This document shows positions 59,202 through 64,000 of a stretch of 64,000 nucleotides of DNA, piece by piece. Each line of letters begins with the position of its first letter. Within the stretch, counting starts at the first letter, position 1. This DNA comes from Fodinibius roseus (GTDB taxonomy: Bacteria > Bacteroidota > Rhodothermia > Balneolales > Balneolaceae). Both the position numbers and the translations under genes were made by a program. Under the pieces are notes generated by a model. The model worked only from the letters and a program-made list of their open reading frames with translations. It was not told the origin of the DNA and ran no database searches. The DNA lies in the NCBI RefSeq assembly GCF_900129315.1, contig NZ_FQUS01000007.1:1-64000 (forward strand). The letters are read 5' to 3'.

Positions 59202-59738
59202 TCATCCCGCGCGTTTGACCTTGGTCTTTTCTTCAGGTACCGACTCCCCGACCGATCGATAGGAGCGATCGTGATACAGCACGCCCGGATGGTCATTTTG
59301 CTGTTCAATTTCCACCACCTCGCCCACAATGATAGTATGATCGCCGGCTTTAAGCTTATCATACGAACGACATTGTATGACGGTTGAGATATTGTTTAAA
59401 ATAGGACTGCCGTATGCGCTGCGATAGTAGTCGACATCCTCAAACTGTTCTTCACCCGTCCGCCCGGAAACGGCAAAGTGATCGCACAGGCTGGATTGTT
59501 CCGGCTGTGGAATATGAATGGCATAATGGGTAGCCCGGGTTATTAATCCGTGAATTTGAGCTTCGTGATCGATATTGAAAGAGATGAGCGGAGGGGTAAG
59601 CGATAAGCTCGTGAAAGAGCCGATGGTGATTCCTCTTTTCTCTTTGCCGATAGCAGCGGTAGCGATCGTTACCGGAAAGGGCAGCTGCCGCATGGCTTTT
59701 TTAAGAGATTCAGCTGTTTCTTCTTTGGAAATAGTCAT
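59202..59738 (-). CDS. Flavin reductase domain protein
   Basis: This is a 178-residue FMN-binding protein of the HpaC-like reductase family. Signatures: PFPVTIATAAIGKEKRGITI, SFTSLSLTPPLISFNI, and HYAIHIPQPEQSSLCDHFAV, plus GDHTIIVGEVVEIE. It supplies reduced flavin to a two-component monooxygenase, most likely SfnG encoded upstream. I start it at 59738; the longer frame to 59786 runs into the dispersed repeat copy I and is not protein-like. Confidence 0.9.
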   Translation of the reverse strand: MTISKEETAESLKKAMRQLPFPVTIATAAIGKEKRGITIGSFTSLSLTPPLISFNIDHEAQIHGLITRATHYAIHIPQPEQSSLCDHFAVSGRTGEEQFEDVDYYRSAYGSPILNNISTVIQCRSYDKLKAGDHTIIVGEVVEIEQQNDHPGVLYHDRSYRSVGESVPEEKTKVKRAG

Positions 59739-59756
59739 ACTGATTGTTGGTTTACG

Positions 59757-59894
59757 ATGCCTTTGCAAAACCGTTCTTTTGTCCAATGCCGGCGTAATCG
59801 GCCGGTTGAAATTCTCACATATGGGCTATGGCTGCGAGGGCAACCTCCCTGGGGCCTTGACTCTGAACAAAATTCCTGATTTTTCAAAGGTTTC
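59757..59894 (+). repeat. Dispersed ~140-bp repeat, copy I (subtype 2)
   Basis: It starts GATGCCTTTGCAAAACCGTT and ends CTGATTTTTCAAAGGTTTC. Its interior CGGCGTAATCGGCCGGTTGA and CTGCGAGGGCAACCTCCC closely follows copy D, unlike the other copies. It lies inside the organosulfur gene cluster, between the FMN reductase and the flavin reductase. Confidence 0.85.
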
Positions 59895-59913: not shown

Positions 59914-60504
59914 TCAGAACTGGGGTCCCAGCGAGGATAAAAAGGTGCTTTTGTCAATATACTGCGATAGCTCGATAGTCGATTTGCCCAGGTTCTGCAG
60001 CCGCTGAACAACTTTTTTATCGACGATTCGGTCCTCCTCGAATTGAGAGGCGTTGATATAGATGCCGCCGCCTACCTGGTAGGCCCCAAAAAAAGAAGCA
60101 ATGGGCCCCAGTTCCTGGCTCACGGAAAGGTAGTGATGGTCCGTGGCGCCGGTTGCTATGAGGCCGACCGGCCGGTTTTCCAGCGGGGCTTGGTTTGACT
60201 GCCACTTTCCCCGGGGAATAAGATCAAAAAGATTTTTAAGAACGCCTGAATAGCTCCCCCGGTAGACCGGTGTTCCTATGAGATAGGCCTTGCTGCTGAT
60301 GATGAGCTCCAGTGCCCGGGCCGTATCGCCGCTGTACTGCTCCAGCTTCCGGCCGTCAGCGGTTTCAAGATCATACTCCGCCAGATGGAGGAGGTCGGTT
60401 TCGATATCAAATTCCCCGGCGGCGGACTGTAATGCTATTTCTACGGCTGTTCTGGTTTTTGAAGGGTTCGAAACACTGCCGACGATACCCAGTAGGTTGC
60501 TCAT
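59914..60504 (-). CDS. NAD(P)H-dependent FMN reductase (SsuE/MsuE-like)
   Basis: This is a 196-residue flavodoxin-like reductase. The FMN-binding loop GIVGSVSNPSKTRTAVEIAL is at the N-terminus and the second loop GTPVYRGSYSGVLKNLFDLI near residue 85. SsuE-type enzymes donate reduced FMN to alkanesulfonate or sulfone monooxygenases. Its position directly downstream of sfnG, in the same direction, supports that role. A second flavin reductase follows, so the monooxygenase has two candidate partners. Confidence 0.93.
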   Translation of the reverse strand: MSNLLGIVGSVSNPSKTRTAVEIALQSAAGEFDIETDLLHLAEYDLETADGRKLEQYSGDTARALELIISSKAYLIGTPVYRGSYSGVLKNLFDLIPRGKWQSNQAPLENRPVGLIATGATDHHYLSVSQELGPIASFFGAYQVGGGIYINASQFEEDRIVDKKVVQRLQNLGKSTIELSQYIDKSTFLSSLGPQF

Positions 60505-60767: not shown

Positions 60768-61850
60768 TTAAACGGGGACGGTTTCCGCTGGCCTGGTCGA
60801 CGCTGTTTCTCTGACGGCAGGGATAATTTCATTACCGAAATGAGGAAGCTCATCGGTGAAATGGAGAAATCCGGTAAGTACGAGGTCCACGCCGATGGCA
60901 TCGAGCTGGCGAATGCGCTCGACTATTTGTTCTTTTGTACCGATAAGACCCGTTTTGAAGCCGTCATTGTATTGGACAAGATCGTTGAAATCGGAATCGG
61001 CCCACATGCCCTCGCCCTCCGGTGCTGACTGCCCGGCGCGTTTGACTTGCTCTTTAAAGCCTTCCACGGCCTCCGCTGTGGCGTGCTCGATAATATTTTC
61101 CAGTACTTCCTTTGCTTCCGCTTCGGTATCCCGGCAAATCACAAAGGAGTTTACGCCTACTTTGGGAGGTTCTGTGCCGAACTCCCTGGCATATTGACGA
61201 ACCTGATCGATCTGGCCCTTTATCTTTTCAAGGCTTCCTCCGTTGAGAAACAGCCAGTCCGAGACCCGGGCCGCCATTTTTAAAGCGCGCGGGGAGTTCC
61301 CGCCCTGGAAAATGTCCGGGGGCGTAATGGGCTTGGGCTCGCAGGGAGCCTCATCAATCTGGTAGAAGCGGCCGTTGAAGGAAAAGCTTTCCTCGGTCCA
61401 CAAGCCTTTCAGTACCTTGATAAACTCTTCACTCCGGTCATACCGCTCGTCGTGGGCAAGCCAGGATTCGCCGAAGCGGGTGAATTCATCCTTAAACCAG
61501 CCGCTGACCACATTAAGGTGGAAGCGTCCATTGCTGATCCGGTCGGAGGTGGCCACAAAGTTGGCGATAGGTCCCGGGTTCCACTGTCCCGGGTGAACGG
61601 CACCGATGAGCCGTAATTTCTCGGTATTGGCGGCAAGAGCATTAGCGATGCTCAACGCCTCCAGCTGTTTTTCGGCATTGTAACTTCCAAAAAAGCGGGC
61701 CTGGGCCAGGCCGTAATCAAAGCCGACCTGCTCGGCGGTTTGTGCCAGTTCCCTGTTGTATTCATAGGTCCAATCCGTTTTCATCGGCCAGTCGGTAATG
61801 ACCAGTCCGCCACTTACGTTGGGAACCCAGTAAGCAAATTTTGTATCCAT
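60768..61850 (-). CDS. sfnG: Dimethylsulfone monooxygenase SfnG (FMNH2-dependent)
   Basis: This is a luciferase-like monooxygenase that converts dimethylsulfone to methanesulfinate, releasing sulfur for growth. SfnG-type features: FAYWVPNVSGGLVITDW at the N-terminus, QVGFDYGLAQARFFGSY, RFHLNVVSGWFKDEFTRFGE, and RYDRSEEFIKVLKGLWTEESF. SsuD (alkanesulfonate) is the nearest alternative. The 360-residue length fits. Two flavin reductases follow. Transcription is probably controlled by the leader described at 61926-62092. It is the first structural gene of the cluster. Confidence 0.9.
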   Translation of the reverse strand: MDTKFAYWVPNVSGGLVITDWPMKTDWTYEYNRELAQTAEQVGFDYGLAQARFFGSYNAEKQLEALSIANALAANTEKLRLIGAVHPGQWNPGPIANFVATSDRISNGRFHLNVVSGWFKDEFTRFGESWLAHDERYDRSEEFIKVLKGLWTEESFSFNGRFYQIDEAPCEPKPITPPDIFQGGNSPRALKMAARVSDWLFLNGGSLEKIKGQIDQVRQYAREFGTEPPKVGVNSFVICRDTEAEAKEVLENIIEHATAEAVEGFKEQVKRAGQSAPEGEGMWADSDFNDLVQYNDGFKTGLIGTKEQIVERIRQLDAIGVDLVLTGFLHFTDELPHFGNEIIPAVRETASTRPAETVPV

Positions 61851-61925: not shown

Positions 61926-61964
61926 TAAAAAAGCCCGCTCACCTGAGAAGATGAGCGGGCTTTT
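61926..61964 (-). terminator. Intrinsic terminator / attenuator before sfnG
   Basis: On the minus strand GCCCGCTCA pairs perfectly with TGAGCGGGC across a 10-nt loop. The stem is extended by AAAA/TTTT and followed by TTTTTTA. It lies 30 nt after the leader-ORF stop and 75 nt before the sfnG start codon, so it would end transcription before sfnG unless prevented. Confidence 0.85.
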
Positions 61965-61993
61965 GATTTTCTTCTGAAAAGAATCTTAAAAAA

Positions 61994-62092
61994 TCATGTG
62001 AGCATTGCTCTCTTACAGGTGGTTTTCTTGTATTCAGGCATACAGCAGAGCGCCATCATACAACACATATAAAGAGAGCAGAACATTCGCAT
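61994..62092 (-). CDS. Cys/Met-rich leader peptide (putative attenuator peptide)
   Basis: This is a 32-codon ORF directly before the terminator. It has Cys at positions 5, 10, 11, 16, 17 and 26 and Met at 1, 3, 9, 12, 13, 18 and 30; the N-terminal 18 residues hold five Cys and six Met. Such a count of sulfur amino acids in a leader ahead of a sulfur-acquisition gene suggests a ribosome-stalling sensor of Cys-tRNA or Met-tRNA charging. Codons 5-7 (TGCTCTCTT) and 27-29 (AAGAGAGCA) are perfectly complementary over 9 bases, so the ORF itself can fold. There is no strong ribosome-binding site. Its alternative, a genuine small protein, cannot be excluded. Confidence 0.55.
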   Translation of the reverse strand: MRMFCSLYMCCMMALCCMPEYKKTTCKRAMLT

Positions 62093-62306
62093 CGTTTTCA
62101 CTTTGTAATTATTTCGTTCATTCGCCCCTAACTTAAAAGTAGTATTGCAAAAAACAAAAATTTTTTATGGTTTTGTTTTAACGGTAAGAATCGTCTGTCC
62201 CTTCTGTTCCTCCCGGTTAAAACCGTGACCGTCTTCCGGCAAAAAAAAGGAGATGAAACGCAGGACGTGCGGTAATGGCAGAGTAGCTGGTTTATTTATT
62301 TTACTT

Positions 62307-62450
62307 AAAGAGGTCTTTGCAAAACCGTTATTTTGCCCCGTCTTGACATTGTCGCAATTTCAACATCCTCATATATTTTTTATACACACTGTGGTTTTGA
62401 AATCGCTCAGGGGTTGGTATTGCCCCCCTGGCTTTTTAAAGCCCTCTTGA
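62307..62450 (+). repeat. Dispersed ~140-bp repeat, copy J
   Basis: It starts AAGAGGTCTTTGCAAAACCG and ends GGCTTTTTAAAGCCCTCTTG. Interior matches with other copies include ATTTCAACATCCTCA, ACTGTGGTTTTGAAATCGCT and CAGGGGTTGGTATTG. Confidence 0.9.
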
Positions 62451-62470
62451 TAGAGAGCCAGGACGCTTAA

Positions 62471-62514
62471 TCAGGCACGGGAGACTACGGGATCAGTCAC
62501 GCGGGACTACGGGC
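62471..62514. repeat. 22-bp tandem duplication at the Mrp stop codon
   Basis: Two adjacent 22-bp units (TCAGGCACGGGAGACTACGG and TCAGTCACGCGGGACTACGG, each plus two bases) agree at 18 of 22 positions. The second overlaps the stop codon of the Mrp gene. Confidence 0.6.
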
Positions 62515-63679
62515 GAATTTTGATATCAATTTTTTCCGTCGGATCTTTCGATTGATTCCGGATCGCAAGCTGTTGAATCACATTATTGGAGAGCTCCACA
62601 AAGGCCTGCGCCGACCGGGACTCGAGTCCCTCTTCCAGTACAATCGGCTTGCCGGCATCTCCGCTTTCACGGACGGCCTGCTCCAGCGGTATTTCGCCCA
62701 GGAAGTTGGCTCCGATTCGCTCAGCAAGATCGCGGGCGCCGTGTTTGCCGAAGATATGATATTTTTTGCCGGGCCTGTCTTCGGGGATAAAATAGGCCAT
62801 ATTTTCGACCAGTCCCAGGACCGGGACGTTTACTTTCTTAAACATGGCAACGCCTTTTCGAGCGTCATCCAGGGCCACCGTTTGCGGGGTGGAAACGATG
62901 ACGGCTCCCGTCAGCGGAACGGTTTGTACCAGCGTCAGCTGGATATCGCCGGTTCCCGGGGGAAGGTCGAGCACGAGATAATCGAGTTCCCCCCATTCAA
63001 CTTCTTCCATAAACTGTTTGACTGCACTGGTGACCATCGGTCCCCGCCAGATCATGGCCTGGTCGGGGTCCACCAGCAGTCCCATCGACAGAAAGCGGAT
63101 GCCGTACTTCTTGAGAGGGATCAGCTTTTTCTGGGTCGTGATATTGGGACGCTCATGCGTATCCATCATCGTGGGGATACTGGGACCGTAGATGTCGGTA
63201 TCCAGCAGTCCCACCTTCGCCCCCGTGCGGGCCAGTCCGCAGGCCAGGTTAACCGCTACTGTAGATTTGCCAACTCCGCCCTTGCCGGAAGCAACGGCGA
63301 TTACATTTTTGACGCCGGAAAGCAGCTCCTCTTCCCCCTCATCTTTTTGTCGCTTCTTTTTTTTACGGTGTCCCTGGCCCGGAAAGGCCTGCTCCTCTCC
63401 CCGACCGTCTTCCCGGTCCCGGAATTTAGAGATATTGACCGCCGTGGTGACATCCAGCACGGCCCCTTCGTCCACATACGTGCGAATGGCTTCTTCGCAC
63501 TTTTCTTTGAGATGGGACTCCAGCTGGCTGTTTTTTTCGGGGAGATCGATCGTGAAGGTAATAAAGCTGTCTTGCACGATTAGATCTTCAATCATGTCGA
63601 GGGTGACGAGATCTTTCTCCATCTCGGGATGCATCACATGGGTCAGGGCCGTGCGTACTTGCTGCTTGTTAATCGGCAT
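62507..63679 (-). CDS. mrp: Mrp/NBP35-type iron-sulfur carrier ATPase
   Basis: This P-loop ATPase helps deliver iron-sulfur clusters. N-terminal MIP18-like domain (residues 1-95) with LTHVMHPEMEKDLVTLDMIE; then a charged linker with RKKKKRQKDEG. The ATPase has the deviant Walker A VASGKGGVGKSTVAVNLA, LDTDIYGPSIPTMM, and LDLPPGTGDIQLTL. In Bacteroidota the CxxC cluster motif seen in other Mrp proteins is usually missing; here too VENMAYFIPED has no cysteines. The start at 63679 opens the conserved domain; 21 further codons upstream are open but not conserved. Confidence 0.94.
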   Translation of the reverse strand: MPINKQQVRTALTHVMHPEMEKDLVTLDMIEDLIVQDSFITFTIDLPEKNSQLESHLKEKCEEAIRTYVDEGAVLDVTTAVNISKFRDREDGRGEEQAFPGQGHRKKKKRQKDEGEEELLSGVKNVIAVASGKGGVGKSTVAVNLACGLARTGAKVGLLDTDIYGPSIPTMMDTHERPNITTQKKLIPLKKYGIRFLSMGLLVDPDQAMIWRGPMVTSAVKQFMEEVEWGELDYLVLDLPPGTGDIQLTLVQTVPLTGAVIVSTPQTVALDDARKGVAMFKKVNVPVLGLVENMAYFIPEDRPGKKYHIFGKHGARDLAERIGANFLGEIPLEQAVRESGDAGKPIVLEEGLESRSAQAFVELSNNVIQQLAIRNQSKDPTEKIDIKIRP

Positions 63680-64000
63680 GTTAAAAAAAGGTTGGTTTAA
63701 GCTCGCTAAAATTAGTTTTATAAGATAAGGATTTATATCCACATGCTAAACGTATTCACCCGTCTTTCTCACACATAAAAATTCAGGCTGAGCAATCCGG
63801 GCTAATACCTGAAGAATTCATTCTTCATTCTATTCAGAAATGCGTATTTTATGCAACTGAAATTATGAATAGCCCCAAAGCCGGATATTCAGATAAAAAT
63901 ATTTTCCTCCTGGAAAACCCGGTATCGGATCTGTCCGGGTTGTTTATGGGTTGTGGTCGTTATTACATTTGATAAGAGGTGGCAAGAAAGTTAAAACTGA
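63680..64000. other. Window end, nothing recognised
   Basis: The stretch up to the edge has no supported gene. A 35-codon plus-strand frame starting near 63865 has no family character. The segment next to 63679 should hold the Mrp promoter. Confidence 0.4.

Follow-up and report, generated by a model that had tools for sequence, protein, structure and literature searches.

Sulfur assimilation is classically controlled by transcription factors (CysB, CymR) or by SAM riboswitches. The classical attenuators of the trp, his, leu, thr and ilv type (RF00513, RF00512, RF00506) are built from an amino-acid-rich ORF, mutually exclusive 2:3 and 3:4 helices and a terminator, and the leaders described below share all of these parts. 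Polycysteine leaders were predicted before the cys operons of Actinobacteria, where no terminator hairpin could be found (PMC1262725), and the mycobacterial leader ORFs of this kind were tested experimentally, according to the accounts of Canestrari 2020 given in PMC13236596 and PMC9094748. In Rhodobacterales, ribosome-mediated attenuation was proposed for the uORFC-8-2 motif located before cysS (PMC8632094). Leader-peptide attenuators were also inferred in the main text on Flavobacterium psychrophilum, before amino acid operons, pheA, hisG and others (PMC9723704).

The leader characterised here precedes sfnG, the gene for dimethylsulfone monooxygenase, in a 64-kb window, by which we mean the whole stretch of DNA analysed. 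The source genome belongs to Balneolaceae, and the closest named relative found was Fodinibius sediminis of the phylum Balneolota. The first-pass annotation of the window had pointed to a 32-codon ORF with 6 Cys and 7 Met codons and two Cys-Cys pairs within the first 17 codons, and we confirmed this ORF on the minus strand (Table 1); the Met count includes the start, and the pairs are codons 10-11 and 16-17. The perfect complementarity over nine bases was also found as claimed, between 62080-62072 and 62014-62006. An intrinsic terminator is indeed present before sfnG, but its stem is stronger than had been stated, with 16 consecutive pairs, 8 of them G-C, instead of 9 bp. The reported spacings of 30 and 75 nt were close to the measured ones, which are 29 nt from the stop codon to the terminator and 78 nt from the terminator end to the sfnG ATG (61850). 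One element had to be replaced. The annotation regarded GCTCA near the ORF end as a possible competitor for the terminator 3′ arm, but this sequence is not conserved (AGTCCC in L006, GGCCAC in L002). Conservation instead singles out as competitor the ORF hairpin 3′ arm (AAGAGAGC, 62014-62007), which pairs with the terminator 5′ arm GCTCaTCTT (61956-61948).

Table 1. Features of the sfnG leader and operon in the window.
Feature	Position	Strand	Remarks
Leader ORF MRMFCSLYMCCMMALCCMPEYKKTTCKRAMLT	61994..62092	minus	32 codons; ATG 62092, stop 61994
Cys/Met cluster MCCMMALCCM, codons 9-18	62039..62068	minus	proposed stall site; stalls there permit the antiterminator in silico
Region 1 TGCTCTCTT	62072..62080	minus	partner of region 2; covaries in four sfnG leaders
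Region 2 AAGAGAGCA	62006..62014	minus	ORF hairpin 3′ arm and antiterminator 5′ arm
Region 3 GCTCaTCTT	61948..61956	minus	terminator 5′ arm and loop start; partner of region 2 in the antiterminator
Region 4 GGTGAGCGGGC	61933..61943	minus	terminator 3′ arm; partner of region 3
Intrinsic terminator	61927..61964	minus	16-bp stem 61964-61929, loop of 4, six T at 61932-61927
sfnG, dimethylsulfone monooxygenase, regulated gene	60768..61850	minus	TIGR04021, E 2.6e-171
NADPH-dependent FMN reductase, MsuE-like	59914..60504	minus	TIGR03566, E 8e-31, under the curated cut-off of the family
Flavin reductase-like protein	59202..59786	minus	PF01613, E 1.7e-37
Candidate promoter, Bacteroidota type: TTTTTG, 19 nt, TAAGTTAG	62128..62160	minus	suggestive only

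The MsuE-like FMN reductase and the flavin reductase-like gene probably share the operon of sfnG. Regarding the promoter, the candidate lies upstream of the leader ORF and a similar pair of elements was seen by eye in L006; the Bacteroidota-type motif showed no enrichment over all leaders. Approximately 400 nt (62093-62506, minus strand) separate the leader from the gene that lies next upstream on this strand and encodes a Mrp/ApbC-type iron-sulfur carrier (62507-63742).

The Cys and Met content of the ORF is far above expectation, as 12 of the 31 non-start codons specify one of the two amino acids against a background of 2.7 % (binomial p ~1e-11). Nine terminator-like hairpins were recognised in the window, and only the one before sfnG has such an ORF in front. 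The window leader also folds 5 sd better than its dinucleotide shuffles. It reached the gathering score of no Rfam family, a tRNA being the sole match in the whole window, and its best sub-threshold scores came from terminator hairpins. Likewise, no Rfam gathering score, including those of SAM riboswitches, T-box and amino acid leaders, was reached in 20 leader loci, and no NCBIfam model matched the window peptide or seven other leader peptides.

We found a Cys/Met-rich ORF followed by an intrinsic terminator upstream of sfnG in all seven related genomes that carry this sfnG lineage (G227, G396/Fodinibius sediminis, G422, a Rhodothermaceae MAG, two near-identical f11 genomes and G466). Their sfnG genes are 77-92 % identical to the one in the window, and the ORFs lie 26-45 nt ahead of the terminator. 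The peptides are otherwise little alike (MTFFCSMYMCCCITDPMMSERHSCTCMGAKAT, MQFFCSLYMCCMMDMACMPTYPNTACKRARVP, MNNNSSFYFGNMMCECCMQMQLCMRKLHPSVKGAGL, MLCLCCGDTCMCPPEEPVRAVE, MTGMMPCCGMCNSNLNQVRNEDSE), so the ORF, its Cys/Met codons and the terminator are all kept in the relatives while the peptide diverges. This pattern supports the sulfur-amino-acid attenuator proposed in the first-pass annotation, in which a ribosome held at the Cys/Met codons would free the downstream arm. A second sfnG lineage, with homologues at 58-61 % identity, lacks the leader. In G466 (L016), two Cys/Met leaders, each with its own terminator, stand in tandem before one sfnG, ~550 nt upstream. A search of the source genome with a leader-peptide profile recovered the window ORF alone, and an RNA model was needed to find further leaders.

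The covariance model R1, made from four sfnG leaders only, was run over 245 genomes of the class and located the leader at unrelated genes. In the source genome it lies ahead of a rhodanese-sulfite reductase pair (C16) and ahead of an isochorismatase-family gene (C44). The genes that follow it in relatives are sulfite reductase, SusC-type receptors and an OsmC-family gene. All 20 Balneolaceae genomes with sulfite reductase have the leader, namely 18 of them together with G406, where it stands directly before the sulfite reductase gene, and G119, where the leader-rhodanese end is on a separate contig. A second model, R2, also run over the class, extended the set, mostly within family f56 of the same order. 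Its additions were a DASS/CitMHS-type permease with cysD and cysN, sulfite reductase with cobA and cysH, cobA with cysH, cysH alone, and rhodanese with a YeeE/TsuA-like sulfur transporter. In total we recovered 60 sulfur leaders with defined ORFs in 39 genomes of Balneolota/Rhodothermia, with 17-48 nt between stop codon and terminator, and the arrangement recurs ahead of most sulfate-assimilation genes in the group. Target genes were named through curated families, and nearly all those identified serve sulfur or peptide acquisition; only one isochorismatase-family gene and one OsmC-family gene fall outside this description. The annotation was right about the sfnG instance but took too narrow a view, since sfnG belongs to a larger regulon.

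Several members of the set deserve separate description. Leaders of the Cys/Met type were observed over operons of SusC, a gene in the SusD position and an M14 carboxypeptidase (L050-L053, L056, L061, L091, L100). Both genomes in which this operon was examined have all three genes, and the gene in the SusD position has no Pfam match. The SusC-SusD-M14 carboxypeptidase system is a probable route of peptide uptake as a sulfur source. A SusC homologue of 56 % identity in G372 (L085) was found without the leader, and the SusC paralogues of ~42 % identity (L087-L090) have no Cys/Met ORF before their terminators and were rejected. Other weak model matches (L057-L060, L062-L066, L092-L104) were also discarded as terminators without a preceding Cys/Met ORF. 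In the source genome, the leader at C44:5385-5551 (L048:985-1152) resembles the SusC leader of G396 and precedes the isochorismatase-family gene. No close SusC orthologue was found in this genome, and the leader may have been left behind or may have gained a new target. The cysD-cysN operon of the source genome (C44:139400) was found without the leader. In L112 (G465), a Cys-rich leader precedes rhodanese and the YeeE/TsuA-like transporter, which suggests that the uptake of thiosulfate or a related form of sulfur is under the same control. Beyond the class, a single match was obtained at 1e-5 among 395 genomes of the phylum. This leader (L125:582-713), from G074 of another class, encodes the Met-rich peptide MKTTIKNIISLTNLTMAMRMMMRMKIFVCEGM with 7 Met and 1 Cys, has a terminator and precedes O-acetylhomoserine sulfhydrylase and aspartate kinase. 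It is a possible methionine attenuator.

In nearly all leaders, the 2:3 pairing involves a segment close to the ORF end and a constant part of the terminator. When terminators were swapped between the first 34 leaders, the own terminator gave -16.2 kcal/mol and the swapped ones -12.6 kcal/mol (0 of 10,000 permutations, p = 1e-4); the leaders are related by descent, so the counts are non-independent and all such significance figures are descriptive. The own terminator again fitted better when swaps in the 34 leaders were limited to within gene classes, and the test gave p = 0.005 for the sfnG leaders alone and p = 2e-4 for all 60. For ten trp leaders alone, whose terminators are nearly alike, p was 0.18. 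By energy alone, the antiterminator did not outperform dinucleotide shuffles of the leader (7 leaders, combined p 0.29). We therefore dropped this energy as evidence, and the support for the antiterminator comes from its position, its partner specificity and covariation.

In 17 sulfite reductase leaders, 98.5 % of the cells of the 2:3 helix are paired, and 3 of its 8 pairs show double changes. Slid by 1-3 columns, the same helix is paired in 24-59 %. Compensatory changes were likewise present in the terminator of the sulfite reductase leaders, and in the sfnG leaders of Balneolaceae pairs of the 1:2 helix changed on both sides. Region 2 of the sulfite reductase leaders, GGUAGUGG, is translated as Gly-Ser-Gly in most of them and as Val-Val in L073, L074, L076 and L077. 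Its letters remain constant across the change of frame, which argues that it was selected as RNA and not as peptide. The opposite holds for the cluster, where Cys is encoded by TGT 129 times and by TGC 62 times in 34 leaders, a variation which indicates selection for Cys and Met codons, i.e. for the amino acid. Met and Cys codons are equally frequent in these leaders (193 and 191).

We folded the leaders with a ribosome masked at each codon and the terminator 3′ arm not yet made, which is an equilibrium approximation, and called the antiterminator at a probability of at least 0.5. In silico, 355 of 384 Cys/Met codons were stall positions that allow the antiterminator, as against 542 of 818 other codons (34 leaders). 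With the stop codon in the A site, the antiterminator had a predicted probability of 0.00 in all 34. Without a ribosome, it ranged from 0.00 to 1.00 between leaders and was 0.72 for the window leader. Since this last outcome differs by leader, the protector helix formed with region 1 may not be general and the untranslated state is predicted not to be uniformly off.

These foldings suggest how the switch could operate. When charged tRNA-Cys and tRNA-Met are ample, the ribosome would reach the stop at 61994 and cover region 2, region 3 would then pair with region 4, and transcription would stop before sfnG. If either amino acid runs low, the ribosome would stall at codons 9-18, covering or already past region 1. 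Region 2 could then engage region 3 ahead of the synthesis of region 4, no terminator would form and sfnG would be transcribed. Whichever Cys or Met codon of the cluster holds the ribosome, that should be enough, and the leader is thus expected to respond to the lack of either amino acid. We infer that transcription begins ahead of the ORF, that the ORF is translated, that the ribosome stalls, and which way the response goes; as to the direction, low Cys or Met leading to readthrough, we agree with the first-pass annotation. Judged from sequence, the sfnG leader very probably works as a ribosome-mediated transcription attenuator, with charged tRNA-Cys and tRNA-Met as its signals.

A natural control is provided by tryptophan. 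Ten Balneolaceae genomes (L124, L127, L129-L135, L137) have a leader ORF with Trp-Trp-Trp and a terminator before trpE. These are classical trp attenuators of the same design as the sulfur leaders. They contain 3 Trp and approximately one Cys/Met codon each, whereas the sulfur leaders contain ~10 Cys/Met and 0.2 Trp. The codon therefore tracks the pathway while the architecture stays constant.

We considered several other explanations of the leaders. What is kept among them is in-frame codon content, with synonymous Cys codons varying and no fixed aptamer; the helices alone covary, and there was no match at Rfam gathering scores in the window (tRNA aside) or in the 20 leader loci. These observations speak against a metabolite-binding riboswitch, e.g. 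of the SAM or cobalamin class, with an expression platform and an incidental ORF. SAM riboswitches in other phyla do sit before sulfur genes, with a structured leader and a terminator, and a leader of this form would be at a typical SAM riboswitch site there. Nevertheless, this is the explanation to which we give the least credence.

The ORF might instead encode a functional Cys/Met-rich protein, e.g. a metal-binding one, with the hairpin being merely its terminator and sfnG having its own promoter. Small proteins rich in Cys and Met can bind copper. Leader peptides that act in trans have also been reported, as for peTrpL (PMC7298713). On the other hand, neither the order and number of Cys and Met nor the C-terminal sequence is kept, region 2 switches reading frame with unchanged letters, the hairpin covaries with the ORF end, and the identified targets nearly all belong to sulfur/peptide acquisition, bar the isochorismatase-family and OsmC-family genes; we regard a functional protein as very unlikely. 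Slightly less probable still is a stalling leader that answers to translation slowing down in general or to a Cys pool that is oxidised or under metal stress, or one whose ribosome is halted by the nascent peptide. Translational control by a copper-sensing nascent exported protein has been reported (PMC9973294) and makes such a signal conceivable, but the peptides diverge and contain no conserved arrest motif, and the Trp counterparts in Balneolaceae indicate that the plain amino-acid version is in use.

Attenuation by Cys and Met codons is thus the reading that we retain. What the sequences show is an ORF with its codon content, a terminator, helices that exclude each other, and both covariation and conservation across genes; as far as sequences can test it, the device agrees with the definition of a ribosome-mediated transcription attenuator. 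Balneolota/Rhodothermia probably activate the uptake of sulfur in response to ribosomes that stall because Cys or Met is scarce. It seems more likely than not that many copies of the same device coordinate the sulfate-type permease, cysD-cysN, PAPS reductase, siroheme methylase, sulfite reductase, sulfone monooxygenase and the outer-membrane SusC-SusD-carboxypeptidase system in Balneolota and related Rhodothermia, acting as an OR gate for the lack of Cys or Met. Repeated leader-peptide attenuators, which would read Cys/Met charging directly, appear to wire up the pathway as a whole, and the leaders provide a ready catalogue of sulfur-acquisition genes. The pairing of Trp and Cys/Met versions in one family makes codon specificity directly testable.

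The kind of attenuator is known; neither Rfam nor the literature searched yielded its Cys-and-Met version, its targets or its phylum. No regulon of Cys/Met attenuators came out of the literature search, nor did any such attenuator before sfnG or in Balneolota, which is weak evidence as subscription papers lay mostly outside the search. The mycobacterial polycysteine ORFs, as described in the accounts cited above, are similar in their Cys runs, short ORF, association with sulfur assimilation genes and response to cysteine. They differ in being cysteine-only and leaderless, in showing no terminator hairpin that could be found (PMC1262725) and in belonging to another phylum, whereas in the sulfur leaders described here Met is about as frequent as Cys and a terminator is present. 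The uORFC-8-2 motif shares the tandem Cys codons, the hairpin and the intrinsic terminator (PMC8632094), but it guards cysteinyl-tRNA synthetase alone, has two Cys codons with no Met cluster described, and occurs in Alphaproteobacteria. F. psychrophilum, a relative within Bacteroidota, shares leader-peptide attenuation, but the main text names no sulfur leader (PMC9723704). Unlike the classical attenuators, the sulfur leaders would sense Cys and Met together, they guard the acquisition of inorganic and organic sulfur, and their sequences are unrelated and remain below the gathering scores.
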